Shown piece by piece: positions 18,702-62,853 of a stretch of DNA of 64,000 nucleotides (position 1 is its first letter; every line of letters starts with the position of its first letter). Location: NCBI RefSeq assembly GCF_003726095.1, contig NZ_CP026031.1, positions 1,922,001-1,986,000 on the forward strand, read 5' to 3'. Both the position numbers and the translations under genes were made by a program. The DNA is from Niallia circulans. Its GTDB lineage: Bacteria > Bacillota > Bacilli > Bacillales > Cytobacillaceae. The notes under the pieces are model-generated. The model saw only the letters and a program-made list of their open reading frames with translations, was not told where the DNA came from and did not search any database.

Positions 18702-19754
18702 TCAAAAGCCGTCCAGTAATTGAAACATTGGCATTAACACAGATAAATAAATAGAAATTATTAGAATTCCAACAGCTGTATACAATGTAGGTTGAAGGAC
18801 TTTTAATGTTTTTTGTAAATTTTCTTCTATTTGTGTTAAGCAATAGTTTCCGAAATAATAGAATTCCTGATCAAGCTTTCCATTTTCCTGGCCGTGCTGA
18901 ATAATTTGTAATAGCTCTTTTTCCAAAAAATCAAAGGAAGCAAAAGCTTGTTCAAGTCGCACTCCTTTTTTTAACTGTGAAATAGTGATTTCGCCTATTT
19001 GGGAATATAGTTTTTGCTCCTTGTTTTCAAGAAAAAATTGCATACACTCATAAATCGAAAAACCACTTGATAATAAATAACTTAACTGCACGGATAGTAG
19101 ATAGGAAAAATAACGTCTAACAAATATTCCAATCATCGGAATACTCGCTAGTGCATTTATTTGCTTGATAACATCTAATTTTCGAAAAGAAAAATAATAG
19201 TAGAGAAGCGCGGAAATAAAACATAGGGATAAGAAAACAAGAAGAAATGGAATAATGTGACCAATAAATTGGAGAAATAGGAGAAAGAAATTCTTGTTAA
19301 TATTCATCGTTAAAAAGATAGAATTAAACTTCGGGATGAGGATACTTTGAACAAAGAAAAATAAAACGAAGGTAAAACACAAAAGAAAAAGAGGATAGGT
19401 AAGGATTTTTCTTAATTTTCTTATCGTATCTTGCTTATTCTGAATCATTCTACTTGCATCTTGAAAAGCACTAGCAAATCCGCCATGCTTTTCAGCAAAG
19501 TAAACAAAACTTATCACTTGATAATCAAAATTGAATCTTACTAGGTTCTCAAAAAACGACTCTCCTCCTTTTAAAGAACCGTAACATGCATTAATATCTT
19601 CCATTCGACGATCGGGCATATAGTAACGAGAAGACTGGACTGCCTCTGCCATCGAATAGCCTCTATCCAGCAGCTCACCAATACACTTTAAAAATTTCGC
19701 TTGTTCTATATTAGACCATGCATGATTATTTTTCATCATAAATCCACCGTTCAT
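18702..19754 (-). CDS. comGB: Competence inner-membrane platform protein ComGB
   Basis: The 350-aa GspF/PilC-type polytopic protein on which ComGA acts to assemble the pseudopilus. It has three strong hydrophobic segments (about residues 120-145, 165-190 and near 325-345) and duplicated GspF-like domains (GESFFENLVRF..., GVRLEQAFASFDF). It overlaps the comGA 3' end by 29 nt. In the lysogen it is cut off from the comG promoter by the prophage. Confidence 0.9.
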   Translation of the reverse strand: MNGGFMMKNNHAWSNIEQAKFLKCIGELLDRGYSMAEAVQSSRYYMPDRRMEDINACYGSLKGGESFFENLVRFNFDYQVISFVYFAEKHGGFASAFQDASRMIQNKQDTIRKLRKILTYPLFLLCFTFVLFFFVQSILIPKFNSIFLTMNINKNFFLLFLQFIGHIIPFLLVFLSLCFISALLYYYFSFRKLDVIKQINALASIPMIGIFVRRYFSYLLSVQLSYLLSSGFSIYECMQFFLENKEQKLYSQIGEITISQLKKGVRLEQAFASFDFLEKELLQIIQHGQENGKLDQEFYYFGNYCLTQIEENLQKTLKVLQPTLYTAVGILIISIYLSVLMPMFQLLDGF

Positions 19755-20358
19755 ATTCTCCTTTCTTTATATAGCCTAGGGCAATCCCTTTACAAATAAT
19801 ATCTCCTAGTGATTTATAGTTAGCTCTCTTAGTTTCTGTTCGGTTATAGAGAATATCAGAAATCATCCTGCCTGTAATCATTTCAAACACTGTTGATCTT
19901 TTTAAGCGGTTATCTAAACGGTAACAGTTAGGGGAACAATCTTTATCACAAAAAGGACATACCATTTCAACTAGTCTTTGAGCAGTAATAGCGATTAAGG
20001 TTTGTTCAATCTCAGTCTCTTTAATACCAAACTCTAACAGTCGATGAATCGCACCTTTCGCATCTCTCGTATGCATTGTGCTCAATACTAAATGACCTGT
20101 TAAGCTCGCCCTTATCGCAATATGAGCAGTTTCTTTGTCGCGGATTTCTCCAACCATAATAATATCTGGATCATGGCGAAGAATTGCTTTTAAGCCAGTG
20201 GAATACGTAATACCAGCTTTCTCATTGACTTGAATTTGCAAAACGTTTTCCTGCGTTTTTTCAATGGGATCTTCTAAGCTAATCACATTTCGCTGATAAA
20301 GATGTGCATTTTCATTTAGGAGAGAGTAGAGTGTTGTTGTCTTGCCAGACCCAGTTGG
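19726..20358 (-). pseudogene. comGA: comGA 3' part, separated by prophage insertion
   Basis: This is the C-terminal 208 codons of the traffic ATPase ComGA: Walker A GSGKTTTLYSLL, ISLEDPIEKTQ, the Asp box LKAILRHDPDIIMVGEIRD, Walker-B region, the His box TGHLVLSTMHTRDA and the C-X2-C...C-P zinc region (CPFCDKDCSPNC). It has no start codon of its own before the Walker A codons; phage DNA is in frame upstream only back to a stop at about 20383. Joined at the core to 62853-62415 it gives a continuous 354-aa ComGA, close to the B. subtilis length. It is an interrupted gene rather than a decayed one: I see no stop or frameshift inside. Confidence 0.95.
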
Positions 20359-20375
20359 TAGCGTTACGTAAATAT
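20345..20375. other. attL: left prophage junction with core CAGTTGG
   Basis: The core CAGTTGG is at 20352-20358. To its left is comGA sequence (Walker A codons); to its right is phage DNA with the arm CGTTACGTAAATAT (20362-20375), the exact reverse complement of the phage arm at attR. Confidence 0.88.
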
Positions 20376-20562
20376 AACTAATTATTTACACATCATCCCT
20401 ATTCTTCTTCAAGCAATTATATAGCCCTTCCGATTTGTTTCAATACATTTAATATCAATGGAGATATCTGAATCAATACATAACCTAATCCAGTATTCAA
20501 TACCTATGTATAATAATATAATCAAAAAACAAACATGACATTTTGTCTACTTTTGTCGAAAT

Positions 20563-20599
20563 AATAGTATCTTATAACCATTAACTATAAGATATTATT
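20563..20599. promoter_or_regulatory. Inverted repeat upstream of the lipoprotein gene
   Basis: Arms AATAGTATCTTATA (20563-20576) and TATAAGATATTATT (20586-20599) match at 13 of 14 positions, 28 bp before the lipoprotein start. It may be an operator or an RNA hairpin. The rest of 20376-20562 holds no visible gene. Confidence 0.5.
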
Positions 20600-20627
20600 A
20601 GATAAACAAAAGTAAGGGGGAACAACT

Positions 20628-21191
20628 TTGAGAAAAATTATATGGCCAGTGTTATTAGGGATTTTAGTATTATCTGGCTGTAGCAGCAGTGAAGAAAAAA
20701 AAGCAAGGGAAACAGCAGAAGCGTATATGGAAGCTGTAAAAAATGGAGATGAGTTTTTAAATATCTTTTCATCAGAAGAATTTGTTGATGTATTTGATTA
20801 TGAATATTTAAAAACACTGGATTCGTCAGAAGAAAAAATACTAGAAGGTTATTCCTATGAAGATTGGGATAGGCTTTATGGCAATGATCCTAATCCAGTA
20901 TACAGTTCATATGATGATTATCGGAGCCAAGAAAGAAAATATGTGGAATCTCTTATAAGTGAAGGAAAAGATTATGAAATAATTAAAGATACTGACCAAG
21001 AATTCGAATACTGGGATGGAAAAAGTTATGGTAAAAATTTCACGCTTCTCTACAATGTGGAAATCGCAGATGAAGATGGACAGAAGCTTTATAAAAAAGC
21101 TGAATTCACTGTGGAAGAAGGCTTAGTATACGGTGACTCTATCGATGATTTTGTTGACGGATACAAAATTACAGATATCACATTAAGATAA
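20628..21191 (+). CDS. Prophage-encoded lipoprotein of unknown function
   Basis: The 187-aa protein has a clear lipoprotein signal: basic MRKIIWP, hydrophobic core, lipobox LSGC at residues about 15-18, then SSSEEKK. The mature part is very acidic, with many Asp, Glu and Tyr residues and no known catalytic motif. TTG 20628 follows AAGGGGG by about 8 nt. It is the phage gene closest to attL, has its own terminator and opposite orientation to the late genes, so it is a likely lysogenic-conversion (moron) gene acting at the cell surface. A superinfection-exclusion role is possible but only inferred. Confidence 0.75.
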   Translation: MRKIIWPVLLGILVLSGCSSSEEKKARETAEAYMEAVKNGDEFLNIFSSEEFVDVFDYEYLKTLDSSEEKILEGYSYEDWDRLYGNDPNPVYSSYDDYRSQERKYVESLISEGKDYEIIKDTDQEFEYWDGKSYGKNFTLLYNVEIADEDGQKLYKKAEFTVEEGLVYGDSIDDFVDGYKITDITLR

Positions 21192-21194
21192 AAT

Positions 21195-21223
21195 AAAGCC
21201 CTTCTCAAATGAGTTGGGCTTTT
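21195..21223. terminator. Bidirectional terminator
   Basis: AAAGCCC paired with GGGCTTT plus T-tract, between the lipoprotein gene and the convergent YolD-like gene. It likely also stops leftward phage transcription before the comGA remnant. Confidence 0.75.
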
Positions 21224-21225
21224 AT

Positions 21226-21486
21226 TCATACTTTCTTCACTTGCAAAATATCTATAAATGGAACTTTGATTGTTTCGGCAAATTTCTCTATATGTATGAG
21301 TTTAGTATTTCCATCCATTTTAACTACTTTCCCTCGGACTGGATCTTCTCTCTTCCACACAGTTAATCTAAGTTCAGCCTTATCCTCTAACGCTTCGATT
21401 AAAGTATTAGCAATTTCCTCTAATTCAAATTTATCTCGGCTTGGTCTTGATGGCTTTTTAACTTTCTTAGGTTTTACTAACATCAA
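21226..21486 (-). CDS. YolD-like domain protein
   Basis: The 86-aa protein has a basic N-terminal segment followed by a YolD-like pattern (KFELEEIANTLIEALEDKAELRLTVWKREDPVRGKVVKMD...IHI...VPFIDILQVKKV). YolD family members often sit next to Y-family polymerase UvrX or SOS genes. Here it follows a WYL-like gene by 2 nt and the pair is downstream of LexA boxes, so it is likely DNA-damage inducible. No polymerase gene accompanies it. Confidence 0.65.
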   Translation of the reverse strand: MMLVKPKKVKKPSRPSRDKFELEEIANTLIEALEDKAELRLTVWKREDPVRGKVVKMDGNTKLIHIEKFAETIKVPFIDILQVKKV

Positions 21487-21488
21487 AA

Positions 21489-21707
21489 TTATGCACCTCT
21501 CCTTACTTTCCGAACTGGTCCAACTGATAGAATGTTGCTTATCTTAAAAGTGCGTTGCTGCTTACGAGTAAAGCAATAAGCACTAAAGGACTCTTCACTC
21601 ATTTTAATAACCTGAATCCTACGTTGGCTGAATTCCCCTTTATTGTTTTGATAAATCATTTCTAAAACCTCTTTACTTTCTACAGCTCTTTTAAGTAAAC
21701 CTTTCAT
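21489..21707 (-). CDS. Short WYL-domain-like protein
   Basis: The 72-aa protein matches the WYL core: a beta strand LEMIYQNNKGEFSQRRIQVIKM, then SFSAYCFTRKQQRTFKISNILSVGPV with the basic ligand-binding residues. Full WYL regulators have an N-terminal HTH, missing here, so it is a stand-alone ligand-binding module. A strong AGGAGG site precedes the ATG. It is the first gene of a leftward pair driven from the two-LexA-box intergenic region. Confidence 0.65.
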   Translation of the reverse strand: MKGLLKRAVESKEVLEMIYQNNKGEFSQRRIQVIKMSEESFSAYCFTRKQQRTFKISNILSVGPVRKVRRGA

Positions 21708-21739
21708 CAGTTAGACCTCCTTTTTTTAATTATTATATA

Positions 21740-21783
21740 CGAACGTTCGTTCGAAAACAATATTGAAATCGAACAATTGTTCT
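21740..21783. promoter_or_regulatory. Two LexA (DinR) SOS boxes in a divergent promoter region
   Basis: CGAACGTTCGTTCG (21740-21753) and CGAACAATTGTTCT (21770-21783) each contain GAAC-N4-GTTC, the core of the Gram-positive SOS box. They lie between divergent gene starts at 21707 and 21818, so both transcripts should be derepressed by DNA damage. Confidence 0.8.
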
Positions 21784-21817
21784 TATATAATTATCCTATC
21801 GAAAAGGAGATGGGGAT

Positions 21818-22147
21818 ATGTTAAAAGACCGGGGTACGAAAAAATGGGTTGCTATGATGCTGCCTGAACATGTAGTTGCTGTAAAAAATGAAATTAATAA
21901 TCAAGATAAAATTGAACAACCTGAACTTGACGAAGATAAGTTGAATGATATAGATGTATTGATCCACGAGGGTATGGAATATAATCAGCTACTTAAATAC
22001 AGTCTATATAATAATGGATACATAGATACTTTGATTGGCCGTACTGTTTACATAGATTATTTAAACAACCAGTTACGCATTCAAGATGAGAAAGATCAAA
22101 TTCATTACGTATCATTTAGAAAATTAGTTGATGTAGAAAGAACATAA
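21818..22147 (+). CDS. yolD: YolD-family protein
   Basis: The 109-aa protein starts MLKDRGTKKWVAMMLPEHV, the hallmark of the YolD family, followed by PELDEDKLNDID and a beta-rich C-terminus. It is the first gene of the rightward SOS-controlled pair, with GAAAAGGAGATG upstream. In other bacilli YolD proteins are encoded beside UvrX/DinB-type polymerases; none is found here. Confidence 0.85.
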   Translation: MLKDRGTKKWVAMMLPEHVVAVKNEINNQDKIEQPELDEDKLNDIDVLIHEGMEYNQLLKYSLYNNGYIDTLIGRTVYIDYLNNQLRIQDEKDQIHYVSFRKLVDVERT

Positions 22148-22161
22148 ACGGAGCAGAAATT

Positions 22162-22524
22162 ATGAGTAGATTATCCGAAGAAGAAAGAGATATATTTGAA
22201 AATGCTATATATCTCCCTATGTTGTTGACTGTGCTTGATCGTGACTTTAACGTAGCTAAGACTGCACCGTTTAAACTCAATCAAGTCTACTTAAACTTAA
22301 TCGAACACATGATGAAACAAGTACAAAGGGACATGAGAGAGAATAATAAAAAGATGTATAAGAATAAGTGGAAGTTGGTTAAGGGTGAAAGTGACGAAGC
22401 TTTTACGGAATACAATTTTTATATCAACGGATATCATGAAGTGCATCGCTATTTTAATTACAATCTTAGAAACAACACAGAAAAGCTACTTAATTATTAC
22501 TTTTTGCATCGTCATTTAGATTAA
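22162..22524 (+). CDS. Conserved phage protein of unknown function
   Basis: The 120-aa protein has the pattern FENAIYLPMLLTVLDRDF...KTAPFKL, seen in a widespread Bacillus prophage family without known function. It lies 14 nt after the YolD gene and so probably belongs to the same SOS-controlled transcript. It is largely helical with many basic residues in the middle (MRENNKKMYKNKWKLVKG). Confidence 0.6.
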   Translation: MSRLSEEERDIFENAIYLPMLLTVLDRDFNVAKTAPFKLNQVYLNLIEHMMKQVQRDMRENNKKMYKNKWKLVKGESDEAFTEYNFYINGYHEVHRYFNYNLRNNTEKLLNYYFLHRHLD

Positions 22525-23069: not shown

Positions 23070-23936
23070 TTACTTTATGCGAATTTTTTGTTTTGGATAG
23101 ATTAAATCAGGGTTTTTAATACTAGGATTTAATTTTTGTATTGCTGCAACTGATGTTTTATGATTCTTAGCAATCTTTGTGAGATTTTCTCCATTTTTAA
23201 CAATGTGATGTTTAGCCTTAGTTGTTTTGGCAGTTGTTTCAAAAGGATTAATCCAGCTACCTGGCACCCCTTTTTTAGTCGTGACATTAATCATGCCTTG
23301 GGATTCATTAAAAACATAATATTTGCCTTTTGGTACAGTAGTCTTTTTATCCTTCTTAGACTTAGCATCTGCTGCAGTAGCATAACCATTATATTGTTTA
23401 GTTACTTGATAAGTTTTTACATTATCCTTTGTGGAAGAAGTTGTTTTCTTAGGCTTTTCCACTTTTACTCCATCCACATCATATTGAGTGAGGTTATTAT
23501 CCTCAATAGTACGAATAAGCTTTATTGCATAGTTTGGATCAGTAGCATATCCTGCAGCTTGTACTGCTTTTGCTGCCGCTTTATAATCCTTTTCACCAAT
23601 TACTTTTTTGTATTTGTTTCTATCCCAAGATACTCCATTTTCATATAGAGCAGTAAGGTCTCGTAGAGACTCATACCATGAAGGATATTTTCGAAATTTG
23701 GCATCCACATAGACTGATTTACCGTTATATACTTCCCAAGTTTTCATGGTAACCGATTGGCCGTTATAAGTTCCTTTGATACCAAATAAGTTTTTACCTT
23801 TTTGGGCTAGTCCACTTTTGCCCCAATTAGATTCATGGATAGCTTGTGCAAGAATTAAAGACACTAAGATATTTGATTCTTTTCCCACCTTTTTAGCATG
23901 TGGTAAGATTTCATTGATAAATGACAATTTAATCAC
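23070..23936 (-). CDS. Endolysin: glucosaminidase with SH3-like and LysM domains
   Basis: The 288-aa lytic enzyme has an N-terminal FlgJ/glucosaminidase domain (residues about 1-150) with catalytic Glu35 in AIHESNWGKS and the motifs NLFGIKG, FRKYPSW and AVQAAGYATDPNYA. Residues about 170-235 resemble the wall-binding module seen in Bacillus phage lysins (TYQVTKQYNGYATAADA...GKYYVFNE). A C-terminal LysM (HHIVKNGENLTKIAKNHKTSVAAIQKLN, residues about 242-288) binds peptidoglycan. No signal peptide, so export needs the holin encoded just upstream. Confidence 0.9.
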   Translation of the reverse strand: MIKLSFINEILPHAKKVGKESNILVSLILAQAIHESNWGKSGLAQKGKNLFGIKGTYNGQSVTMKTWEVYNGKSVYVDAKFRKYPSWYESLRDLTALYENGVSWDRNKYKKVIGEKDYKAAAKAVQAAGYATDPNYAIKLIRTIEDNNLTQYDVDGVKVEKPKKTTSSTKDNVKTYQVTKQYNGYATAADAKSKKDKKTTVPKGKYYVFNESQGMINVTTKKGVPGSWINPFETTAKTTKAKHHIVKNGENLTKIAKNHKTSVAAIQKLNPSIKNPDLIYPKQKIRIK

Positions 23937-23985
23937 TCTCCATTTTTATTTTTATAAAAGAAAAAGAGCAGCTATTAAGCTACTC

Positions 23986-24237
23986 TTACTTTGTTTTTGA
24001 TTGATTTTTAGCTAGGTTATGACCAACTAATAAATCCTTTTGCTTTTTACCCTTTGCAGTCACGTAATTGTTTTTAAACCAGGCAATTGTTCCTGCGATT
24101 GCTGTAAATACAGCTGATATAAACGCTGTTTGCTGCTCTTCTGTTCCTGGTATTTCATAAAGACCAAAACTAACTAAAAATTGATTAATAAACGCTATTC
24201 CTAATACGATTGTTCTGATTAATGTACCTTTGTCCAT
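23986..24237 (-). CDS. SPP1-type phage holin
   Basis: The 83-aa protein has two hydrophobic segments (about residues 4-24 and 38-54) with a short polar turn and a basic C-terminus, typical of the SPP1/phi29-type small holin family. ATG 24237 has AAGGAG 8 nt upstream. It sits between the XhlA-like gene and the endolysin, the standard lysis cassette, and should form the lesions that release the endolysin. Confidence 0.8.
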   Translation of the reverse strand: MDKGTLIRTIVLGIAFINQFLVSFGLYEIPGTEEQQTAFISAVFTAIAGTIAWFKNNYVTAKGKKQKDLLVGHNLAKNQSKTK

Positions 24238-24249
24238 TCCTAACACTCC

Positions 24250-26631: not shown

Positions 26632-29187
26632 CTAGTTTCTAGTTACGTCCATAGTTACTCTAGAAGTAGCAGTCGGTGGTTTGCTAAATTTTAATGTAAA
26701 ACCATTTATAGACTTTTCTTCTATCCACCAGTTACCGCAATCCCATTCAGGCGTAACGTACACCACATAATTGGTATCTGGTTGTATACGCTCGGTCCTA
26801 AATGCGTATTTGTATTCGCTCCATCCAGCCGGTATCTCTATTCCTATACCAGGAATGTTATAATTCTTTAGCCTTGTTGGTTCGTCCGTATCTGATAAAT
26901 CAATATTACCTACTCTGGTAATAAATGTTGGCCAAACAGATCCTGCTGTATAATAAGCACCTACTCGTCCGCGGAATAAATTGTTAACCGCTATAATATT
27001 TACACTAAACGAGTTAATTTCTGTGCGTATCCATCGTGTTTTACCTAATGAATAAAACATGTTTCCATCTAATTTAACGAGAAATGACGATATATCATCC
27101 ACATTAGTTATGGAAAAAAAGTTTTTGGAGTCCGACGCATTAATTGATTCGTCTATTTTATTATCTTTTATGCGTAAAATCCCGCCAGCCATTGAGTTAT
27201 CTGCAAGGACAGTATTATCATCAATGCTAGTTGTATTTGTTAGATGAAACCCAAGATTAGTAAGTGTGTTATCGTTAATAGTAATATCTGTACATTTTGC
27301 TAGACTAATCAACATTACATCATCACGAAGATTTCGAACAAATGGCACATTGCTTATCCTTACATTTTTATAAGCATCAACTTCGAATAATCTATTTGTC
27401 CATTCTTGGTGAGGGTTATTTTCGTTTGTAATTTCAATTGATGTGTTATCTATAATAAAAGCAGTTTGCATATAAACTCCACGAACTGCAGCAACAAAAT
27501 TGTACTTTGTTCGTTTGAACATTAATTTGCTATTAAGTATTTCAACATGCGGGCTTCTTGTAATTCGCTTTGCGTCCATGTAAATTAATGAATTATTCAC
27601 ATGGATTCTTTGTGTCCAGGCCATTTGTAAACTACCTTTACAATTATCAAGCGAAATATTTCCTACCATATCCGGAAATTCATTTATTCCATTACTTGCT
27701 AAGAAGTTACCCACGCAATTAACATAAGTAATATCAAACTCGCCCATCCCGTGGCAGTCGAACGCTCCATGCCAATCATTCGGCATTCTTGCATTTTCTA
27801 CTCGCATATGTCCGCTTGAAGCAAAATCAACTAAATGGCGTAATCCGTAACCACGAACATTTTTAATAGAACCATGTACAGATGAGCCAATCTGCATTCC
27901 ATAACCACAGCCAGCCATCACTGTACGTGGATAACTAGCAACGAAATTATTAATAATTGGACTATATACACTTCTCAACATTAATGCAGGGAAACGATGA
28001 CGAGAAGCCTTGAAATTATTAAGTGTAAAATTACTTGCATATCTTACACTTATTCCACCTACCCAACTGTCCCGTTCACTGTTGTCGGTAATAGTTGCAG
28101 GAATAGGTGTATCGTTCATATCCTCAAATACTAAATTTTCTATTGTTACATTATCCACCGTTTCTAATAAAGCGATTGTCCCATTTACTTTTAAGCTATT
28201 AAAACGCAAGTCTGAACAAACATCAACATACACATTAGCGCCATCAACATAGATAACTCGCGCGATTACATTTAACATAGAAGGATTATCGCCATAATTT
28301 TTATCCCATGTACCGCTATGATTTTTCACGTTAACAGATACATAATCACCTTTTGTAAAAAGAGTAGATGCATCTGTTAACGTAGTGACTACTTTTGTTA
28401 CTTGCGTAAATGGTTGTTTCAAGCCTTTAAAATTATCACCGTTTACATAAAATTCTTTGTCAATAATTCCTTCATTAGGGATAATATCCACTACGTTTGT
28501 TCTTGTTTCTTCAAGCAGTTTTCCTCTTATTGTAATAGCTCCATACATCCGCCCTGTTCCATTGTCTGATTCTAAATCTTCTGTACCTACATACCTAAGT
28601 GGCGAATTGTTAAAGTTAATTCTAATATCGCCTCTAGTGATAACTAAAGGTCTTGAAATTTTAAAAACTCGTTTAGGAGGAAAAGTTAACTTTGATCCAG
28701 GAGGCAACGAATCAACTAAACTTTGGAGAATAGGTATATCATCTGTTTCCCCATCTCCCTTAACTCCATACATCAACACGTTTGTATTTATATCTTCTAT
28801 TCGCTGTGTGTTAGTTGCCAACTCTGCGGTAAGACGATTATCCACTTCATTAATAGCGGATGGATCAATATTTTGTATCTCTATCCAATTCTCACCGTCA
28901 AATCGATAAATCTTCCCGCTGTCACGAGTCATTACTGTTTTACCTTCGACAACATCTGGATAAGTGATTTCTAAATCGTTAAACGTGTTAACAGGAGGTA
29001 ACCATTCGATTTTAGCTGCCCCTATTACTTTGTCAAATGCTTTATCAGATACTGTTTCTACAGCATTATCAAAATTTATATTCAACTCTTTAAAATCTGC
29101 TTCAATGTCTTTAAAGTTATCATTCATGTTATTTCTAAAGACTCGATCAATTGTTGCCCCAATTGTTTTATATGGCCATCTAGGCAT
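26632..29187 (-). CDS. Tail spike / receptor-binding protein with beta-helix fold
   Basis: The 851-aa protein starts MPRWPYKTIGATIDRVFRNN and has an N-terminal part resembling tail-fibre attachment regions with short helical linkers, then from about residue 135 the pectate-lyase-like entry VLMYGVKGDGETDDIPILQSL, typical of right-handed beta-helix spikes. The following 500 residues have many short Asn/Ile/Val-rich turns (NNFTLNNFK, INNFVASYP, ITINDNTL) expected of stacked coils. A distinct C-terminal module (about 790-851) ends in a beta-rich domain. It probably binds or degrades a surface polysaccharide. ATG 29187 has GGAGG 8 nt upstream and overlaps the preceding gene. Confidence 0.82.
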   Translation of the reverse strand: MPRWPYKTIGATIDRVFRNNMNDNFKDIEADFKELNINFDNAVETVSDKAFDKVIGAAKIEWLPPVNTFNDLEITYPDVVEGKTVMTRDSGKIYRFDGENWIEIQNIDPSAINEVDNRLTAELATNTQRIEDINTNVLMYGVKGDGETDDIPILQSLVDSLPPGSKLTFPPKRVFKISRPLVITRGDIRINFNNSPLRYVGTEDLESDNGTGRMYGAITIRGKLLEETRTNVVDIIPNEGIIDKEFYVNGDNFKGLKQPFTQVTKVVTTLTDASTLFTKGDYVSVNVKNHSGTWDKNYGDNPSMLNVIARVIYVDGANVYVDVCSDLRFNSLKVNGTIALLETVDNVTIENLVFEDMNDTPIPATITDNSERDSWVGGISVRYASNFTLNNFKASRHRFPALMLRSVYSPIINNFVASYPRTVMAGCGYGMQIGSSVHGSIKNVRGYGLRHLVDFASSGHMRVENARMPNDWHGAFDCHGMGEFDITYVNCVGNFLASNGINEFPDMVGNISLDNCKGSLQMAWTQRIHVNNSLIYMDAKRITRSPHVEILNSKLMFKRTKYNFVAAVRGVYMQTAFIIDNTSIEITNENNPHQEWTNRLFEVDAYKNVRISNVPFVRNLRDDVMLISLAKCTDITINDNTLTNLGFHLTNTTSIDDNTVLADNSMAGGILRIKDNKIDESINASDSKNFFSITNVDDISSFLVKLDGNMFYSLGKTRWIRTEINSFSVNIIAVNNLFRGRVGAYYTAGSVWPTFITRVGNIDLSDTDEPTRLKNYNIPGIGIEIPAGWSEYKYAFRTERIQPDTNYVVYVTPEWDCGNWWIEEKSINGFTLKFSKPPTATSRVTMDVTRN

Positions 29188-30679: not shown

Positions 30680-30688
30680 AGTTAACAC

Positions 30689-31504: not shown

Positions 31505-31505
31505 G

Positions 31506-34895: not shown

Positions 34896-34907
34896 AACCG
34901 TCACCTC

Positions 34908-36016: not shown

Positions 36017-36019
36017 TCC

Positions 36020-50679: not shown

Positions 50680-51675
50680 TCAGCAGATTAATTGCAACTG
50701 CCCGTTCTCTTCTTCTAAAAATTCTTCTTCATATTTCCCTTTTAGTATTAATTCAAAGATTGATTCTAATATCTGAACAACAATGCTATTTCCAGCTTGA
50801 TGATATAGCGTTCCATTCAAGCAACCAACTTTTGAAGGATGTTCTTTTAAGGCTGCTTCATAATCACTATCATCAAACCCCATTAGTCTCCAACATTCTT
50901 TTTCTGTTAGGTACCTGTATTGACCATCCTTCATCTTTACTACACCACTATTTGGACAACGCATTTGTTTTGTTGTAATTGTATCTACAAAGTCTTTTAC
51001 TTCATCTAACATTCGACCATTATAGCTACCAGAAACTATAGGCATTCCAGGTAATTTCTTTACCATGCTTGGTTGCGTAAAAATGTACTTCTCGTCCACA
51101 TCAATTTCTAGGAATTCTTTAATTGATCGCATAGGCTTTTTTCGCAGTTTATTAAAGTTGAACTTCCCACCATCTAATATTGAAACTGTGAACAATCTCT
51201 CCCTAGCTTGCGGAATGCCAAAGTCTCTAGCATCTAAAACTTGATAAGAATTTGTATAACCTAACTTTTCCATATCACTCAAATAATGATTAAATGCAGT
51301 AACCATTTTCTTAGAAAGTGCATTTTTTACATTTTCCCAAATAACTACTTTAGGTTTCCAAACTCCAAGGTTTTCGATAATCTTTATGGTTTCAAACATC
51401 AATGAACTTCTGGTACCATCTTCAACATTCCCACCATACTGTTTACCTGCAATACTAAAGTCTTGGCATGGTGATCCATGTACTAAAATATCTGGTTGTA
51501 AACTATAACCTACTACCGACTCTGGTTCATACCGATTATCAAACATAGAGTTATAGGTTCTTACCGCCTTTTCATTCCACTCTACGTAATCTATAGACTT
51601 ATGTTTAACACCTAAATTCTGCAATGCCTTTCTAGGCGCTCCAATCCCACCAAATAACTCCAATATTTTAATCAT
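50680..51675 (-). CDS. Orphan DNA cytosine-5 methyltransferase
   Basis: The 331-aa enzyme has C5-methylase motifs in order: I LELFGGIGAPRKAL, IV GSPCQDFSIAG with catalytic Cys70, VI WENVKNAL, VIII QARERLF, and X at the C-terminus (YHQAGNSIVVQI). No restriction endonuclease gene is beside it, so it probably protects phage DNA from host restriction or alters gene expression. AAAGAGGGTG precedes the ATG. Confidence 0.92.
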   Translation of the reverse strand: MIKILELFGGIGAPRKALQNLGVKHKSIDYVEWNEKAVRTYNSMFDNRYEPESVVGYSLQPDILVHGSPCQDFSIAGKQYGGNVEDGTRSSLMFETIKIIENLGVWKPKVVIWENVKNALSKKMVTAFNHYLSDMEKLGYTNSYQVLDARDFGIPQARERLFTVSILDGGKFNFNKLRKKPMRSIKEFLEIDVDEKYIFTQPSMVKKLPGMPIVSGSYNGRMLDEVKDFVDTITTKQMRCPNSGVVKMKDGQYRYLTEKECWRLMGFDDSDYEAALKEHPSKVGCLNGTLYHQAGNSIVVQILESIFELILKGKYEEEFLEEENGQLQLIC

Positions 51676-54227: not shown

Positions 54228-54387
54228 TCATTTCCTTCTTAAATGCTTTTATTCGCTCTTTGAGTACATCTAAATCAGCATGAAACTCTTTTTCTGTTAT
54301 AGGCGGGCAATTAAGACAAGATTTATAGCGAATGCCGTATGCTTCAAACTCATGGACAACTCTCTTTCCGTTGCATAGATTACACAT
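54211..54387 (-). CDS. Small Cys-motif phage protein, 58 aa
   Basis: Contains CNLCNGKRV and CLNCPP. It overlaps the end of the helicase-loader gene (by 8 nt) and the next gene. Probably a minor early protein with a zinc site. Confidence 0.55.
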   Translation of the reverse strand: MCNLCNGKRVVHEFEAYGIRYKSCLNCPPITEKEFHADLDVLKERIKAFKKEMSAVGS

Positions 54388-55252
54388 TGTCTAAGCCTAC
54401 CAATCTATGATTTAATTTCTTACGATCACCTTCGATAACAACTGTATAATCCTTGCTCATTTCGAAAATTCTTGTTCCTAAGGCTTCGTCAATATCGCAA
54501 AGTTCATCGACTGTTTTCTCAGAAGAAATCATAATCGGCTTATGATTGATGTATCTGTAGTTAATAACTGCAAACATCTGTTCAATCTGAAAGTTTGTAG
54601 GAAAGTCACGACCTTTGAACAAATCATCTATAAACAACACATCAACACGTTTCATTTTTGTTAGTTTTTCTTCTAGTCGGTCAAAGTTATCTTTTAGATC
54701 ATTGAATCCTTCCACGAATGGGAAGTACAATACACTCACTTGTTTCTTCATGATTAGGTTGTTAGCTAGTGCGATAAGAAGATGTGTTTTCCCTGAACCT
54801 GGTTGTCCAAGAAGGGATATGCTATTTACACGATTAGTCTTAATGCCTTCATAGTTTTTAAAGTAAGCAACAGCACATCTGTAAGCATCTCTAATTACCT
54901 GGTCTTTACCATCCAGAATGAAGTTAGAGAAATTGATTTTCCGAAACTCTTCTGTTATCTCACTAAATTTAAGAAGATGGTTAGAACGTTTCTTTTTGGC
55001 ACAAGTACAATCTTTCATAGTTAGATAGAATTTAAGTTCCCCATTTGGCCATTTCCTTTGGATCCCTTCATCATCTAAATCCGGAATGTCCTCTAGGTAA
55101 AATCCTTTATCTTCGCATTTCGAACAGTTGTATTTAATCTCGTTTCCCGATCCATCCGACTTTGTTCCCTGTGATCGATTCGCTACTCTTTTTTGGAGTT
55201 CTTCCATTACCTGAGCGATACTTCTTGCTTCCCCCACTTGTATCATCCTCAC
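54380..55252 (-). CDS. DnaC-like helicase loader ATPase
   Basis: The 290-aa AAA+ protein has an N-terminal Cys-rich region (CSKCEDKG...CTCAKKK), Walker A GQPGSGKTHLLIAL, Walker B VLFIDDLF and sensor region ISSEKT. Phage DnaC/DnaI-type loaders place the host replicative helicase on the phage origin. A GTG at 55237 is an alternative start with better spacing from GAGGATG. It overlaps the initiator gene end by more than 100 bases. Confidence 0.88.
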   Translation of the reverse strand: MRMIQVGEARSIAQVMEELQKRVANRSQGTKSDGSGNEIKYNCSKCEDKGFYLEDIPDLDDEGIQRKWPNGELKFYLTMKDCTCAKKKRSNHLLKFSEITEEFRKINFSNFILDGKDQVIRDAYRCAVAYFKNYEGIKTNRVNSISLLGQPGSGKTHLLIALANNLIMKKQVSVLYFPFVEGFNDLKDNFDRLEEKLTKMKRVDVLFIDDLFKGRDFPTNFQIEQMFAVINYRYINHKPIMISSEKTVDELCDIDEALGTRIFEMSKDYTVVIEGDRKKLNHRLVGLDNV

Positions 55253-55967
55253 TTTCTAGGTCAGCTAAAGTTGTAATACCTTTCTTCCTCCAACTACACA
55301 GTTTTTTGTAAACAAACTTCCATGTCTTTCCGTTACCTCGTGCTGCATCTTTTATCGCTTCTTCAATAAGTTGTTCAGGTTGTTCGAAACCAAAGTTATT
55401 TATTACATCGTCAATGTCATCTCGAAGAAATTCTGTAATGTCTTCTGGATTGATGATTTTACTTTTTTCTAAAAGCTCTAAAATTCGATTCAAAGTATTC
55501 TCCTCATCCTCTTTATTTTTATTTAGATTTTTATTTAAGTTATTTATTTCTTGGGGGGTAGTTTTACCCGGGGTACCTGGGGTAACTTTACCCGGGGTAG
55601 GGAGGGTAGTTTTACCCGGGGTAATTCTACCCGGGGGAGTTTTACCCTCCCTTTCTTCATCCGTCCATTTATCATAATTTTTGTTAAAACCGATTACCCT
55701 TGAACGACCATTGGATATTTTTTGATAGATAATTTTCCTTTGTTCCAGTTTTTGCAACTCTCTTCGTATTTGTCTGTCGTCATATCCAGTTGCAGTGCTT
55801 AAGAAACTTTGAGATAAAGTATGTTCTTTTCGATTAAAACCATATGTGTATCTCCAAATTACAAATATTAATCTATATTGAATGGGGCTCAGCTTGATGG
55901 TAGCCATGTGTTCTAATAATTCATTGGCTATTTTCGTAAAGCCGTGCTCCAATTGCACATCTGCCAA
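55134..55967 (-). CDS. Phage replication initiator with winged-helix N-terminus
   Basis: The 277-aa protein has an N-terminal phage-replication O-like winged helix (FTKIANELLEHMATIKLSPIQYRLIFVIWRYTYGF...DDRQIRRELQKLEQRKII, about residues 8-90), a Pro/Gly/Thr-rich middle (about 108-140) with repeated T-P-G-K units, and a DnaD/DnaB2-like C-terminal part (VINNFGFEQPEQLIEEAIKDAARG...). The middle is encoded by the GC-rich repeats at 55557-55638, which form a likely origin within the gene, as in lambda O. Confidence 0.82.
   Translation of the reverse strand: MADVQLEHGFTKIANELLEHMATIKLSPIQYRLIFVIWRYTYGFNRKEHTLSQSFLSTATGYDDRQIRRELQKLEQRKIIYQKISNGRSRVIGFNKNYDKWTDEEREGKTPPGRITPGKTTLPTPGKVTPGTPGKTTPQEINNLNKNLNKNKEDEENTLNRILELLEKSKIINPEDITEFLRDDIDDVINNFGFEQPEQLIEEAIKDAARGNGKTWKFVYKKLCSWRKKGITTLADLESEDDTSGGSKKYRSGNGRTPKKSSESITGNKVGWIGKRD
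55557..55638. repeat. Iterons in the initiator gene: candidate replication origin
   Basis: Four 19-bp units of the form GGTAGTTTTACCCGGGGTA begin at 55557, 55581, 55605 and 55620 (24, 24 and 15 bp apart). Each centres on the palindromic CCCGGGG. Base content is strikingly GC-rich compared with the AT-rich flanks. The units are direct repeats. Confidence 0.7.
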
Positions 55968-55978
55968 GCCCTCACCCC

Positions 55979-56155
55979 CTAATTTCTGTAGCAGATCGCC
56001 ATTCCATTTGATATTTGCTTAACTCGATATCCTGGATAGCAACGATTGATGTATTGTAAAACCAACCGCTGCAACCCCTGCTTATCGTCCGCTTGCTCCC
56101 AAATCCATTCCGGCAAAACCACGTTTGTTGGTACTTTGTCCGGGATAATGTTCAT
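55979..56155 (-). CDS. Small phage protein between recT and the initiator gene, 58 aa
   Basis: MNIIPDKVPTNVVLPEWIWEQADD...; ATG 56155 overlaps the recT stop. Soluble, no domain recognised. Confidence 0.5.
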   Translation of the reverse strand: MNIIPDKVPTNVVLPEWIWEQADDKQGLQRLVLQYINRCYPGYRVKQISNGMAICYRN

Positions 56156-56976
56156 TAGTCAAAATTCACTTCTTGGTTAGGGTCAAATGGCGGTTTATCA
56201 CTTTGAATTTCTTCATGATAATCAATAATTTCTGGCATGCTTTCTTGATCGTCTGTTATATCTTTGATGTCCCGAAATTCTTTTTCATCTTTATCAACCG
56301 CACTTTGCATTTCAATAGACAGGATTCCCCACTTGCTCAGCATATTTCTAAGCACAGTTTTTTTGGCCATTGCATCAAAATCCTTTTTCCAGCCAAAATC
56401 AGATTTACTGAATTTCTTCTTATGATCCTCAATTTGTTTTTTGGACCAGTACACTGTCTTTTCAAAACCATTCGTTAAACGGAAGAATCCACAATACCCA
56501 ATTACCTTGTCAGAAGTTGCCCCATCAAGATTTAGTTCCAACTCTTCAGTAAGACGGTTCCAGCTGATTAATTCGCCTTCGTGAACCTCAATGACATTGA
56601 TTGATTTATACTGTCCTGTTCTTAGTGCCAATTGAATATATCCTTTGTAACCTAGCTGGAATTGCGCTGTACCGTTGTAAGGAACAATCCACGCATACCC
56701 TAAGTTTTTATCAACTGGTAAGTCTAAAGTGGCTGCAACTAGTGCAGATGTTACAACAGACATTGGAGTAGCCTTTTGCAAATAAGTATCACCGTTATAA
56801 AGATTCAGCAGTGAAGACATAAACTGTGGTGCTTTTTTATCCAATATTTGTTCAAACTTCTTTTGCATAGTTGGTGTATTTAGTAAAGATTTAAGTCCTA
56901 AATTTTGTGCTGAAACCTGAGTAGTAGCATTCCCTTGATTGGATAATTGATTTTTTAAACCTTGATTAGTTGCCAT
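56155..56976 (-). CDS. recT: RecT-family single-strand annealing protein
   Basis: The 273-aa recombinase shows the RecT core: VVTSALVAATLDLPVDKNLGYAWIVPYNG, QFQLGYKGYIQLALRTGQY, and MAKKTVLRNMLSKWG. It pairs complementary strands made by the upstream YqaJ exonuclease. Start overlaps yqaJ by one base. Confidence 0.94.
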   Translation of the reverse strand: MATNQGLKNQLSNQGNATTQVSAQNLGLKSLLNTPTMQKKFEQILDKKAPQFMSSLLNLYNGDTYLQKATPMSVVTSALVAATLDLPVDKNLGYAWIVPYNGTAQFQLGYKGYIQLALRTGQYKSINVIEVHEGELISWNRLTEELELNLDGATSDKVIGYCGFFRLTNGFEKTVYWSKKQIEDHKKKFSKSDFGWKKDFDAMAKKTVLRNMLSKWGILSIEMQSAVDKDEKEFRDIKDITDDQESMPEIIDYHEEIQSDKPPFDPNQEVNFD

Positions 56977-57926
56977 TAATTATCTAGCTCCTTCACCTTA
57001 AATTTTCTTAGAGAAATTTCTTTTAAAACTTGCTTATATACATCTGGAAATTGTTCCTGTAGTTTAGCTGTATCTACTCTGTTTTGAACTTCATATTTCC
57101 AAGTAATTAAATGATTATCCATGACTGCTATCTCAGCATCTTTTAACTCAGCCTTTAACTTATTTTCAATTTCTCTCTTAGCAGCAAGCACTAACTTTTC
57201 GTTATCCTTAATCAAGGCGTAGTTATTTAATAGTTCAATAGAATTTGCTGAGAGAATGGTTTCCTTTTCTTTTTCTGCCTTCTCATATCGTTCTTTAATA
57301 TATTTCTCAGCTGCACTTGAACCATCCAACTCAGGAGCGATCCCTCCTAAAACGTGATACTCCCAAAAATGTTTTTCAGCTTCGAAAATAATGTTTATTA
57401 GTTCTTCGTCTCGCTCAATTTCTTTCCAAATAAACTTATTGCCACCAATCAAGACAGCTATATATCCTTTTTCTTTTCCAGTAACACCTAGATAATGTTG
57501 AACTTGGACTAAGTATGATTCTGGAATTTCATCGCCTTTCCATTCTTTCATTAGATAGGCGGAAGCAGTTTTACACTCTAAGAGCGCCGATTCTCCAACA
57601 ACCATTCTGTCCAGGTTGGCTTTCATATAAGGGTAATCAGGGTGACTAAACATATAATTTGCACGACGAACTTTCTTTTCTGTTCTCCGTTCAAATTCTT
57701 TTGCTACAACATCCTCCATTTGATTGCCCCAATAAACAGCTTCATTATCAACTTCTTCAGGATCAACTTGCCCTGTTTTTTCTAACCACAATTCAAATTT
57801 AGTGCGGTATTTATTTAAACCAAGAATGATTCCGGCATCACTACCACCAATGCCCTTCGTACGCTCTAAAAGCCACTCATTCCTATTCATGTTCTTTGTG
57901 GATACAGCGTTAGAATTTATGGACAT
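56976..57926 (-). CDS. yqaJ: YqaJ-like phage exonuclease
   Basis: The 316-aa lambda-exonuclease-fold enzyme starts a two-gene recombination operon. Motifs include RTKGIGGSDAGIILGLNKYRT, ANLDRMV-E (catalytic Asp/Glu), ALLECKTAS (E-x-K) and VQVQHYLGV (Gln helix). ATG 57926 follows GGGAGGTTT by 8 nt. Confidence 0.92.
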   Translation of the reverse strand: MSINSNAVSTKNMNRNEWLLERTKGIGGSDAGIILGLNKYRTKFELWLEKTGQVDPEEVDNEAVYWGNQMEDVVAKEFERRTEKKVRRANYMFSHPDYPYMKANLDRMVVGESALLECKTASAYLMKEWKGDEIPESYLVQVQHYLGVTGKEKGYIAVLIGGNKFIWKEIERDEELINIIFEAEKHFWEYHVLGGIAPELDGSSAAEKYIKERYEKAEKEKETILSANSIELLNNYALIKDNEKLVLAAKREIENKLKAELKDAEIAVMDNHLITWKYEVQNRVDTAKLQEQFPDVYKQVLKEISLRKFKVKELDN

Positions 57927-58022
57927 TTCCAAACCTCCCCTTGATTTTTAAAACGATATGTCCTATCATGTACTTAACTATTTGTTTGAAAGTCGCTTGA
58001 CTCGTGCGCCAACCCGGGTCTT

Positions 58023-59875: not shown

Positions 59876-59890
59876 TACCTTTAAACGGTA
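59876..59890. promoter_or_regulatory. Distal repressor operator at the end of the Cro-like gene
   Basis: TACCTTTAAACGGTA, identical to the promoter-proximal operator at 60176-60190 and exactly 300 bp from it. It overlaps the stop codon of the Cro-like gene. Confidence 0.65.
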
Positions 59891-60135
59891 CTACTATTTA
59901 AAAAAAATTCATCATCATGTTTTCCATCATTAACATTAGGAAGTCTAATCAAATCAGAAGGTATATCATAAAGTTTTGCTGCTTTTTGTAAAACATGACC
60001 AGGAATAGCGGTTTGACCTCGTTCGTATCCACCTAGAGTTTTTTCAGTAATACCAAGTTCTTTTGCTGCTTCCATCTGCTTTAAACCTGCATTCACTCTA
60101 GCTGCTGCTAATGATATTTGAAATACTCTATTCAT
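59881..60135 (-). CDS. Cro-like HTH regulator
   Basis: The 84-aa XRE-family protein has the HTH LKQMEAAKELGITEKTLGGYERGQTAIP (about residues 18-45). It starts the leftward early operon, divergent from the CI-type repressor. It probably promotes lytic development by competing for the shared operators. Confidence 0.85.
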   Translation of the reverse strand: MNRVFQISLAAARVNAGLKQMEAAKELGITEKTLGGYERGQTAIPGHVLQKAAKLYDIPSDLIRLPNVNDGKHDDEFFLNSSTV

Positions 60136-60175: not shown

Positions 60176-60265
60176 TACCTTTAAACGGTATTGTCAATCA
60201 TTAAAACTAAAAAAAGTACCGAAAAAAAGTATTTTACCTCTTTACAATACTACCGAAAAACGGTA
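60176..60265. promoter_or_regulatory. CI/Cro operator region (three 15-bp sites)
   Basis: TACCTTTAAACGGTA (60176-60190), TACCGAAAAAAAGTA (60217-60231) and TACCGAAAAACGGTA (60251-60265) share palindromic TACC...GGTA ends. They lie between the divergent Cro-like and CI-like genes. Confidence 0.75.
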
Positions 60266-60292
60266 ATATTAATGAAGAAAGGAGGTGCAAAA

Positions 60293-60925
60293 ATGGACAA
60301 GAAAGAAAATTTAAAACAAATTATGGCTAAGAATATTAAAAAATATTTAGATCGAATGGGGAAAAATCAAACTGATTTGGCTAGAGATTTAAACATTCCA
60401 GAAACAACCGTTTCTAATTGGATGAAAGGTAATACATATCCAAGAATAGATAAGATACAATTAATGGCTGATTATTTTGGTATTTATCGTTCTGATCTTA
60501 CGGAAGACAAGCCTAATAACCTATACTCTACTACTACAGAATTAGTTAAAGTTCCTATTTTAGGGACAATTGCTTGTGGAGATCCAATATATGTAGAAGA
60601 AAATTTTGCTGGATATAGATATGAATCACCTGAAAATTTACCATATGGAGAAATTTATTACCTCGATGCAAAAGGTGATTCAATGGAGCCTACTATTCCA
60701 GATGGTTCTTCAGTAATGATTAGACAACAAAGCGATGTAGAAAACGGAGAAATAGCTGCAGTGTTAGTAAACGGAGATACTGAGGCAACTTTAAAAAGAG
60801 TAAAAAAACTTGGTGGTCTTGTTATGTTAATGCCTGAAAACCCTGCTTATGAACCTATTATTGTTAACAAAGAAAATCCAGCAAGAATCATAGGAAAAGC
60901 AATTAGATTTACAGTCGATCTTTAA
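60293..60925 (+). CDS. LexA-like CI repressor (HTH plus S24 peptidase)
   Basis: The 210-aa repressor has an N-terminal XRE helix-turn-helix (about residues 24-48, NQTDLARDLNIPETTVSNWMKG) and a C-terminal S24 self-cleaving domain: cleavage site Cys95-Gly96 in TIACGDP, catalytic Ser130 in GDSMEPT and Lys168 in EATLKRV. RecA-stimulated self-cleavage should induce the phage upon DNA damage. ATG 60293 follows AGGAGGTG; a longer reading upstream is not needed and would run through the operators. Confidence 0.9.
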   Translation: MDKKENLKQIMAKNIKKYLDRMGKNQTDLARDLNIPETTVSNWMKGNTYPRIDKIQLMADYFGIYRSDLTEDKPNNLYSTTTELVKVPILGTIACGDPIYVEENFAGYRYESPENLPYGEIYYLDAKGDSMEPTIPDGSSVMIRQQSDVENGEIAAVLVNGDTEATLKRVKKLGGLVMLMPENPAYEPIIVNKENPARIIGKAIRFTVDL

Positions 60926-60948
60926 ATTACTAGCTAGGAATTTAAATT

Positions 60949-60973
60949 GGGGGAGCGACGGCTCTCCTTTTTT
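60949..60973 (+). terminator. Terminator between repressor and integrase
   Basis: GGGGAGC / GCTCTCC stem with TTTTTT. The integrase ribosome site (GAAGGGAG) follows at once, so some read-through or a second promoter is needed. Confidence 0.75.
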
Positions 60974-60990
60974 GAAGGGAGACAATATTA

Positions 60991-62397
60991 ATGACAGTTG
61001 GAATTTACATTCGTGTTTCTACTCAAGAACAAGCAAATGAAGGATATTCTATAGGTGCTCAAAAAGAAAGATTGATCGCCTATTGTGCAGCACAAGGATG
61101 GAATGATTTTAAATTTTATATCGATGAAGGAATATCTGCTAAAGATATGAATAGACCAGAATTGCAAAGACTGTTAGATGATGTCAAAAACAGAAGAATA
61201 TCTATGATCTTAGTTTATCGACTTGATCGTTTTACAAGAAGAGTTAAGGATCTTTATGAAATGTTAGAAATGTTAGATAAGCATAATTGCTCATTTAAAT
61301 CAGCGACAGAACTTTATGATACATCCAACGCAATGGGGAGAATGTTCATCGGCCTAGTCGCATTACTTGCACAATGGGAAACCGAAAATTTATCAGAAAG
61401 AATAAAAGTAGCTTTAGAACAAAAAGTTTCTGACGGTGAGCGAGTTGGAGCAATCCCATATGGTTTTGATTTAACGGAAGATGAAAAGTTAATCAAAAAT
61501 GAGAAATCAAAAGTTGTATATGATATGATCGAGAAAACATTTAACGGTATGTCAGCAACACAGTTGGCGAATTATCTTAATAAAACTAATGACGATAGAA
61601 CTTGGCATGTTAAGGGTGTTTTAAGAATTCTTAAAAACCCAGCTATATATGGTGCTACAAGATGGAATGATAAGGTATATGAAAATACACACGAAGGAAT
61701 AATTTCTAAATCTCAATATAAAAAATTACAGGAAATTTTAAATGATCGTTCTAAACATCATAGGAGAGAAGTGACTGGTAACTATTTATTTCAAGGTAAA
61801 CTTTCATGTCCTACATGTAAAAAACCGCTAGCAGTTAACAGATATTTACGTAAGCGGAAAGATGGTACTGAATATCAAAGTACAATTTATAAGTGTAGTT
61901 CTTGTTATTTGAAAGGTAAAAAAATTAAACAAATTGGAGAAAAACGTTTTTTGGACGCACTTTATATTTATATGAAAAATATTGATTTAAAAGGAATAGA
62001 AATTACGGAAGAACCAGATGAGACCAAACATTTGACAGACCAATTAAAATCATTAGAGAAAAAAAGAGAGAAATATCAACGTGCATGGGCATCAGATTTA
62101 ATTAGTGATAGCGAATTTGAACATAGAATGTTAGAAACCAGAGAACTGTTCGAAGAATTAAAACGAAAGTTATCTGAAAAGAAGAAACCTATACAAGTTG
62201 ATATTGAAGAAATAAAAAATGTGGTATTCACTTTTAATCAAACTTTCCATTTTCTCACTCAAGAAGAAAAAAGAATGTTTATCTCCAGATTTATAAAGAA
62301 AATTGATTATGAACTAATCCCCCAACCTCCACAAAGACCAGACAGATGTAAGTACGGAAAAGATTTAGTTACGATTACTGATGTCTTGTTTTATTAA
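60991..62397 (+). CDS. int: Large serine recombinase (integrase)
   Basis: The 468-aa enzyme has an N-terminal resolvase domain with catalytic Ser10 in IYIRVSTQEQ, RLDRFTRRVKDLYEM and the LSERIKVALEQK E-helix; then a recombinase domain (about 155-260) with LRILKNPAIYGATRW; a zinc ribbon (CPTCKKP ... CSSCYLKG, about 270-310); and a C-terminal coiled coil (about 350-405). Such enzymes integrate phages between attP and attB without host factors, and need a recombination directionality factor for excision. Its stop codon is 17 bp from the core of attR, in the same arrangement as in A118-type phages. Confidence 0.95.
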   Translation: MTVGIYIRVSTQEQANEGYSIGAQKERLIAYCAAQGWNDFKFYIDEGISAKDMNRPELQRLLDDVKNRRISMILVYRLDRFTRRVKDLYEMLEMLDKHNCSFKSATELYDTSNAMGRMFIGLVALLAQWETENLSERIKVALEQKVSDGERVGAIPYGFDLTEDEKLIKNEKSKVVYDMIEKTFNGMSATQLANYLNKTNDDRTWHVKGVLRILKNPAIYGATRWNDKVYENTHEGIISKSQYKKLQEILNDRSKHHRREVTGNYLFQGKLSCPTCKKPLAVNRYLRKRKDGTEYQSTIYKCSSCYLKGKKIKQIGEKRFLDALYIYMKNIDLKGIEITEEPDETKHLTDQLKSLEKKREKYQRAWASDLISDSEFEHRMLETRELFEELKRKLSEKKKPIQVDIEEIKNVVFTFNQTFHFLTQEEKRMFISRFIKKIDYELIPQPPQRPDRCKYGKDLVTITDVLFY

Positions 62398-62430
62398 TAT
62401 TTACGTAACGTTATCAGTTGGACCGGTCAG
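62397..62430. other. attR: right prophage junction with core CAGTTGG
   Basis: Core CAGTTGG at 62415-62421. To its left is the phage arm ATATTTACGTAACG (62397-62410), to its right comGA sequence (ACCGGTCAG). The phage arm is the reverse complement of the arm at attL. The phage arm also supplies a stop codon to the comGA 5' half. Confidence 0.88.
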
Positions 62431-62853
62431 AATTATTAATCCGTGTGCATGCTTTAACAAGGAGATTAATTTACGAGAAATATTCGGAAATAAAGAGATG
62501 TGATAGATTGGAAGCATATTTTGGTCGGAAAGTATACGAATTACTAAACTCTCATGAGGGTGAGATGGTAAGGTTGAAAGTCGTAAGCCAATATACTGAC
62601 CTTTGACTGTTGTGGAAATAGATCCATTTTGCGGTTTTCTTCTTTCGCCAATATCCATAGATGCTGTAAATTTGAAATGAGAGATCAACTTGTCGCATTC
62701 ATTTGCTGAAATTACTAAGTGATTAATTAAATGATTGGCAATTCGGAATTGGAGGACAGATTCCTTTTGTTTTGGGGTTATGTGAATATCAGTAGCATTC
62801 TGTTCTACTGCCTCACAAATAATACGATTTGCTAGAGCTTCAATTGATAACAC
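62415..62853 (-). pseudogene. comGA: comGA 5' part, cut by prophage insertion at the Walker A codons
   Basis: The first 146 codons of ComGA: N-terminal domain MLSIEALANRIICEAVEQNATDIHITPKQKE, the conserved MDIGERRKPQNGS segment, and LIILTGPT at the start of Walker A. In the lysogen the frame continues into phage DNA for four residues (DNVT) and stops at 62403-62401. The protein is therefore without its P-loop and ATPase core. Start is GTG 62853 with GGTGG upstream; the sequence before it (62854-63000) is AT-rich but has no perfect ComK box that I could see. Confidence 0.95.

Follow-up and report, generated by a model that had tools for sequence, protein, structure and literature searches.

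Mobile elements in competence genes have been described for several bacteria. In the parts of the literature available here, a prophage is reported in comGA of Staphylococcus pseudintermedius (PMC7029219) and another in comG of Macrococcus (PMC6008420), competence genes are reported to be over-represented among the targets of serine recombinases (PMC10083194), comEC is interrupted by transposable elements in Piscirickettsia (PMC12955456), and the blocking of an element's own replacement through transformation has been modelled as a benefit to that element (PMC4774983). The stretch analysed here (64,000 nucleotides of the Niallia circulans contig NZ_CP026031.1, positions 1,922,001–1,986,000, hereafter the window) holds a comGA gene that is interrupted at its Walker A codons by an element of 42,063 bp (size including one copy of the attachment core). 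What is new is that comGA is a recurrent target, hit in four zones, with two unrelated recombinase clades on the Walker A codons and Tn7-like elements at codon ~250. No literature description was found of Walker A comGA insertions in Bacillaceae or of Tn7-like elements in comGA (subscription journals were mostly outside the search). An initial annotation of the window, made from the sequence alone, had pictured a single prophage and had called the comGA P-loop of a Bacillaceae a less described target. The prophage is real, but that picture understated a pattern in which several unrelated machineries use comGA; given the published reports, its novelty is smaller than had been supposed.

The 5' part of comGA (62415–62853, minus strand; GTG start, 146 codons plus one base, PF00437 profile positions 8–151) stops inside the Walker A motif at a 7-bp core, CAGTTGG, and the 3' part (19726–20358, minus strand; PF00437) runs from the core to the stop codon. 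Copies of the core are common to both junctions, at 62415–62421 and 20352–20358 (plus strand; CCAACTG in the coding sense of comGA). Joining 62853 to 62415 with 20358 to 19726 over one core copy gave 1,065 nucleotides with a stop-free frame of 354 amino acids containing GPTGSGKTT, and the joined ComGA could be aligned from end to end with the intact ComGA proteins of relatives (97.7% identity over 354 amino acids to that of genome G012). Dyad symmetry in the phage attachment site (attP) extended over 18 of 21 base pairs, was centred in the core and was reached by 0 of 2,000 shuffles; if the crossover lies at the dyad centre, it would fall on the first two bases of the Walker A threonine codon (residue 146). 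The ratio of non-synonymous to synonymous substitution (dN/dS) against G012 was 0.019 for the 5' half (1 non-synonymous and 14 synonymous changes) and 0.069 for the 3' half (8 and 28), with 0.114 for comGB as comparison (7 and 15); such low values are compatible with recent insertion or with maintained function alike and do not discriminate between the two. A PF00437 search of the genome returned five matches (one full-length PilB-like and one PilT-like protein, which form a separate pair, both comGA halves, and a weak fifth that did not reach the cut-off) and no second full ComGA. At the level of the sequence, a gene-splitting prophage in comGA with a restorable frame is confirmed. The two parts and their cores were found at the positions given by the initial annotation, and its proposed in-frame rebuild of 354 amino acids with GPTGSGKTT is borne out by the stop-free joined frame and by a matching database protein (P0122, below). 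Both halves have open frames and low dN/dS, as expected from its statement that neither is decayed, and the core lies inside the Walker A codons, in agreement with the P-loop as insertion target. The intact second comGA that it had named as possible counter-evidence was absent from the PF00437 matches, and the empty sites that it had proposed to look for in related genomes are represented by G012 and P0122. Its interpretation is supported in part, the uptake-deficient lysogen and the switch by excision being predictions.

P0122 is an uninterrupted protein of 354 amino acids, identical to the joined ComGA at all 353 compared positions (2–354); the cluster that it represents at 90% identity has 23 members from 13 contigs of up to 122,162 bases. 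Because no contiguous frame of this kind occurs in the window, which is part of a single 5.18-Mb contig, P0122 must come from other assemblies; its identity and the 122-kb contig of its cluster therefore indicate that an uninterrupted comGA allele exists elsewhere. In the relative G012 (comGB 98% identical) comGA is intact, with 4 mismatches in the 42 nucleotides around the site. In the IMG/VR record L042, this comGA site is occupied by another mosaic of the phage (integrase 99% identical, DNA ~96–97% over the longer shared stretches), i.e. there appears to be traffic through the site. Exact att strings gave 0 matches each in IMG/VR, and neither L196 nor L197 contained a comGA half. In the family, five integrases reached 60% identity or more, and all five lie at the comGA Walker A site, four of them adjoining a comGA half and that of G067 by contig ends; an integrase relative in Bacillus sp. 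RO2 (42% identity) has no comGA half beside it. In a separate IMG/VR record, 3300036802_000114 (L043, L195), both ends of a Walker A prophage are present on one metagenome contig, and its integrase lies at the 3'-half side, opposite to that of the window phage.

Recurrence was surveyed by searching ComGA of G012 in 193 genomes of the family. Genomes with a best expectation value (E) of 1e-131 or stronger were taken as intact, and 29 genomes (26 low scorers, among them the genome of the window, plus two borderline cases and an assembly of 66% completeness) were subjected to a second search. In 23 of the 193 genomes, from 8 genera, comGA was split by an insertion: at site A (codon 146/147) in G000, G003, G067, G068, G096, G164, G167, G178, G189 and G199, at site B (codon ~230–236) in G023, G107, G113, G135, G172, G183, G191, G210 and G211, and at site C (codon ~250) in G031, G095, G099 and G165. 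The halves were on different contigs in G067, G023, G210, G211 and G095, and G172 was counted from the 5' half alone with an integrase beside it. An order-wide sample comprised 397 genomes, 17 of them of the own family, and 22 low scorers outside the family, chosen by eye from E-values, were re-examined. At least 14 of the 380 genomes outside the family had a split comGA (a lower bound owing to this choice), carrying at least 15 insertions; among the matches listed, these were at site A in G302, G366, G421, G528 and G546, at site B in G219, G297, G350, G387, G429 and G509, at site C in G039 and as a second element in G421, and at a fourth place (site D, codon ~206–220) in G050 and G557, the halves of the latter being on different contigs. 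All insertions counted here fall in these four narrow zones. Not counted as insertions were abutting comGA pieces with a frameshift or stop (G088, G100, G205, G319), a gene with its middle missing (G525), a genome in which comGA was not found (G561), the 66%-complete assembly (G126) and single uninterrupted matches (G331, G440, G460, G246, G360, G117, G092, G114).

Two arrangements were seen besides simple splits. The comGA on contig C4 of G421 (L177–L179) is doubly occupied: a serine-recombinase element of 11 kb lies at Walker A, and a Tn7-like one of 32 kb at codon ~252. In G031 the comGA halves are ~484 kb apart and out of order (L112, L113), with TniQ adjoining the 3' half, probably the result of a chromosome rearrangement around the element.

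Site A is used by two serine-recombinase clades that are 21–26% identical to each other over partial alignments. Clade A comprises G000, G003, G096 and G199 (64–70% mutually), G546 (64% to the window integrase) and G067 (60%); its elements, where both ends are on one contig, are prophages of ~36–45 kb with TAACGTTACGTAAATA-like attP arms. The second clade (G068, G164, G167, G189, G302, G366, G421, G528; 48–73% among the four first compared, the others 52–57% to G164) belongs to elements of ~6–22 kb, with GTTATCCC/GGGATAAC-like attP arms in G068, G164, G167 and G189. Recombinases at site B form a third clade (48–97% among eight compared, 31–39% to clade A), those of G297, G350, G429 and G509 being 47–50% identical to that of G183. 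No recombinase was found in the fetched sequence of the site A element of G178 or of the site D element of G050, and recombinases were looked for in insertion genomes other than G219, G387 and G557 (the last with its halves on separate contigs). Elements at site C (L106–L110, L176, L177) are Tn7-like: TniQ was present in G165, G031, G039 and G421, and three of these (G165, G039, G421) also had a TnsB-like transposase; TGT..ACA ends and 5-bp duplications of the target were recognised by eye in G165, G099, G039 and G421. G095 and G031 had no clean target duplication, and G099 and G095 no TniQ in the element ends fetched. The end regions of the site C elements in G165, G099 and G095 contain genes with SIR2-like, RES, CAP12/TIR and KAP-NTPase domains. 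The small site A elements at L083 (G068) and L085 (G164) include a satellite-like one of 10 kb with a Phage_capsid gene and one of 22 kb with a type I restriction-modification system.

For comparison, comGB (same operon, 350 amino acids) was matched in 192 of the 193 family genomes, with no match in G172 and a weak one in G117 (87% complete assembly), and pilB was present by best E in 161 of 193, absent from 32 and not clean in G117 and G105. Fisher tests of comGA (23/193) gave p 1.1e-5 against comGB (2/193) and p 4.2e-5 against pilB (2/161), both rough since species are not independent. Relative to the three control genes (comGB, pilB and comEC, the last given below), comGA was the preferred target. 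Within comGA DNA of 27 intact genes, the segments at sites A, B and C lay at the 54th–79th conservation percentile and that at site D at the 97th; the idea that the sites are simply the most conserved DNA of comGA was rejected for sites A–C, site D being near the top.

The prophage (20359–62414) was annotated by PHROG and Pfam matches. Its large serine integrase (60991–62397, plus strand; 468 amino acids, Resolvase and Recombinase domains, PF00239 and PF07508) is 99% identical to Niallia circulans protein P0001, and its stop codon lies 17 bp short of the core at the comGA 5' part. Next to it are a CI-like repressor (60191–60925, plus strand; HTH_3 and Peptidase S24 domains) and, divergent from it, a small helix-turn-helix regulator in Cro-like position (59881–60135, minus strand). 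On the minus strand follow a RecE-like exonuclease, a RecT-like annealing protein and DnaD-like and DnaC-like helicase loaders (54380–57932), large and small terminase subunits (41389–43592), portal, head protease, major head protein and major tail protein (35447–40979; small intervening frames were outside the search), tape measure, distal tail protein Dit and a tail protein with an endopeptidase domain (29180–34904), and an endolysin (glucosaminidase and LysM) with an SPP1-type holin (23070–24246); RusA was also among the matches. With packaging, head, tail, lysis and lysogeny modules present, the element looks like a complete temperate siphophage with a serine integrase. A recombinase beside an att junction, phage modules and inverted attP arms around a short core shared with the bacterial attachment site (attB) were all found, as in serine-integrase prophages. 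At the prophage end next to the comGA 3' half (20628–22524, plus strand) are a YolD-like gene and an unmatched frame with a lipoprotein-like start, and a DNA methyltransferase gene is located at 50680–51675; these three are possible lysogenic-conversion cargo.

Downstream of comGA, comGB, GC, GD, GE, GF and GG are open frames (16807–19754, minus strand), with GC, GD and GE named by position and no Pfam match for the frame at the GE position. Two ComK proteins and an open ComEC frame are also present in the genome, and comGA is the sole break among the com parts examined (comEA, comFA, dprA and others were outside the test). In other genomes, integrases 46–47% identical to that of the window adjoin a radC-like frame that has UPF0758_N as its only domain match and precedes maf (L120 in G021, L121 in G101), which suggests that sister phages use radC as target. 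A 33% identical integrase lies directly downstream of an intact comGB in G149 (L140), possibly an insertion at comGC.

A missing ComGA ATPase would stop the competence pilus, as is known for Bacillus subtilis comG. On the basis of the geometry of the insertion, the intact halves, the restorable frame, the identical uninterrupted allele, the seemingly complete set of phage genes and the repeated targeting, we consider it likely that comGA is disabled here by a temperate siphophage whose large serine integrase uses an attB on the Walker A codons, reversibly on precise excision and probably to the main benefit of the element itself. The integrase would insert the siphophage at this attB; we infer that a lysogen lacking a working ComGA ATPase would assemble no competence pilus and take up no DNA. 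Precise excision by the integrase together with a directionality factor, most likely on SOS induction via the S24-type repressor, would restore comGA in any cells or descendants living on without the phage. The element itself would probably profit most, as an untransformable host cannot swap the prophage for an empty allele by recombination; that unrelated machineries have targeted comGA repeatedly and independently is in keeping with this. Whether comGA is more generally a shared docking gene, on which unrelated elements (the two site A clades, a third at ~236 and the Tn7-like elements at ~250) evolved independently to land since loss of uptake protects them, the phages doing so reversibly, appears to us evenly balanced. 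A regulated switch of the Listeria comK type, with non-lethal excision when competence is wanted and control over DNA uptake, is improbable. The clean in-frame reconstitution, the low dN/dS of the halves and the precedents of comK and of spsM and sigK (PMC7029219 and PMC4191935, as far as available) agree with such active lysogeny, but any precise serine-integrase excision rebuilds the frame without regulation, recent insertion explains the dN/dS equally well, and the phage retains a repressor of SOS type and what looks like a full lytic set. The S24 domain of this repressor suggests that induction follows DNA damage and not competence. Moreover, unrelated elements use the same gene, including Tn7-like transposons that leave target duplications, and for that reason disabled competence that is reversible by phage excision is favoured over a switch; nothing in the data demands a competence-timed one.

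Serine integrases often choose conserved coding sites, and competence is seldom essential. Thus comGA could be a neutral target, conserved and dispensable, onto which integrases evolved with no gain from the competence block; we regard this as rather unlikely. The high conservation at site D is in its favour, as is the P-loop DNA of pilB, which has 15 mismatches to attB in 42 bases (pilT 17), so that DNA specificity alone could explain the sparing of both by clade A. Sites A–C, however, are not the most conserved parts of the gene, the paralogue pilB (dispensable, since absent from 32 of 193 genomes) fell short of a clean match in no more than 2 of 161 genomes and comGB in no more than 2 of 193, several unrelated machineries converge on comGA, and two of the nearest off-target integrase relatives adjoin a truncated radC, radC being a member of a competence regulon. 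That excision has been lost and comGA is permanently gone, a fixed pseudogene, is very improbable: one of the 23 split genes, that of G167, is clearly decayed, but in the window both comGA halves and the examined phage modules are open and a different phage mosaic occupies the site in another record. The probability of an assembly artefact is practically nil; no supporting point was found, the junctions lie in a single 5.18-Mb contig, and error was ruled out by independent IMG/VR records, L042 with a like junction and L043/L195, in which a single contig includes both ends of a further Walker A prophage. Several results weigh against a reversible, element-serving block of comGA. Serine integrases require a directionality factor for excision, and none was identified in the prophage, no search aimed at it having been made. 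A ComK box, searched for strictly or with one mismatch allowed, was not found upstream of comGA, from which no conclusion is drawn. For comEC (776 amino acids queried), 9 of 193 genomes were low scorers, counted without individual examination, and against these the 27 non-intact comGA genes gave a smaller contrast (p 0.0025). Past disruption of pilB would be invisible in the 32 genomes that lack it, and the percentiles weaken but do not remove the explanation that a dispensable conserved gene is all that could be needed. The decay in G167 indicates that insertions can become permanent, and one IMG/VR record (L044; integrase 61%) showed no comGA.

If the convergence is adaptive, comGA occupancy would be a direct genomic readout of the conflict between mobile elements and natural transformation, and could help to explain com-carrying Bacillaceae that do not transform; the prediction to test is that curing makes strains competent. 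The overlap between the targets of two unrelated recombinases at one codon pair would also be useful for studying the evolution of site specificity.

Compared with described systems, as far as their available passages go, the locus is closest to SpST71A of S. pseudintermedius (PMC7029219), in which a prophage of ~44 kb likewise splits comGA, the remaining comG genes are present and loss of competence was inferred. There the split leaves a 3' part of 479 bp, against 626 bp beyond the core in the window, and from these lengths, compared without alignment, SpST71A is probably not at the Walker A site; its passages give no att core and defer functional validation to further studies. The comK prophages of Listeria (phi10403S, A118; PMC7029219, PMC4191935) likewise occupy a competence gene that excision rebuilds, but comK is a regulator gene for which regulated excision has been shown, whereas the window concerns a pilus ATPase gene with a rebuild read from the sequence. 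Recombinase-driven excision also rebuilds spsM (SPbeta) and sigK (skin) in Bacillus subtilis (PMC4191935), which unlike comGA are sporulation genes with demonstrated developmental control. Elements in comYC, comFA, comK and comM, discussed as an anti-transformation strategy (PMC4774983), share the insertional disabling of competence and convergent integrases, with comGA appearing there, in the part available, only in the reference list. Tn6022 and Tsy, which TnsF guides to the Walker B codons of comM (PMC10293859; 'comG' and 'competence' nowhere in the text available), resemble the window element in sitting on the ATPase motif of a gene for transformation, but differ from it in gene, recombinase and motif.

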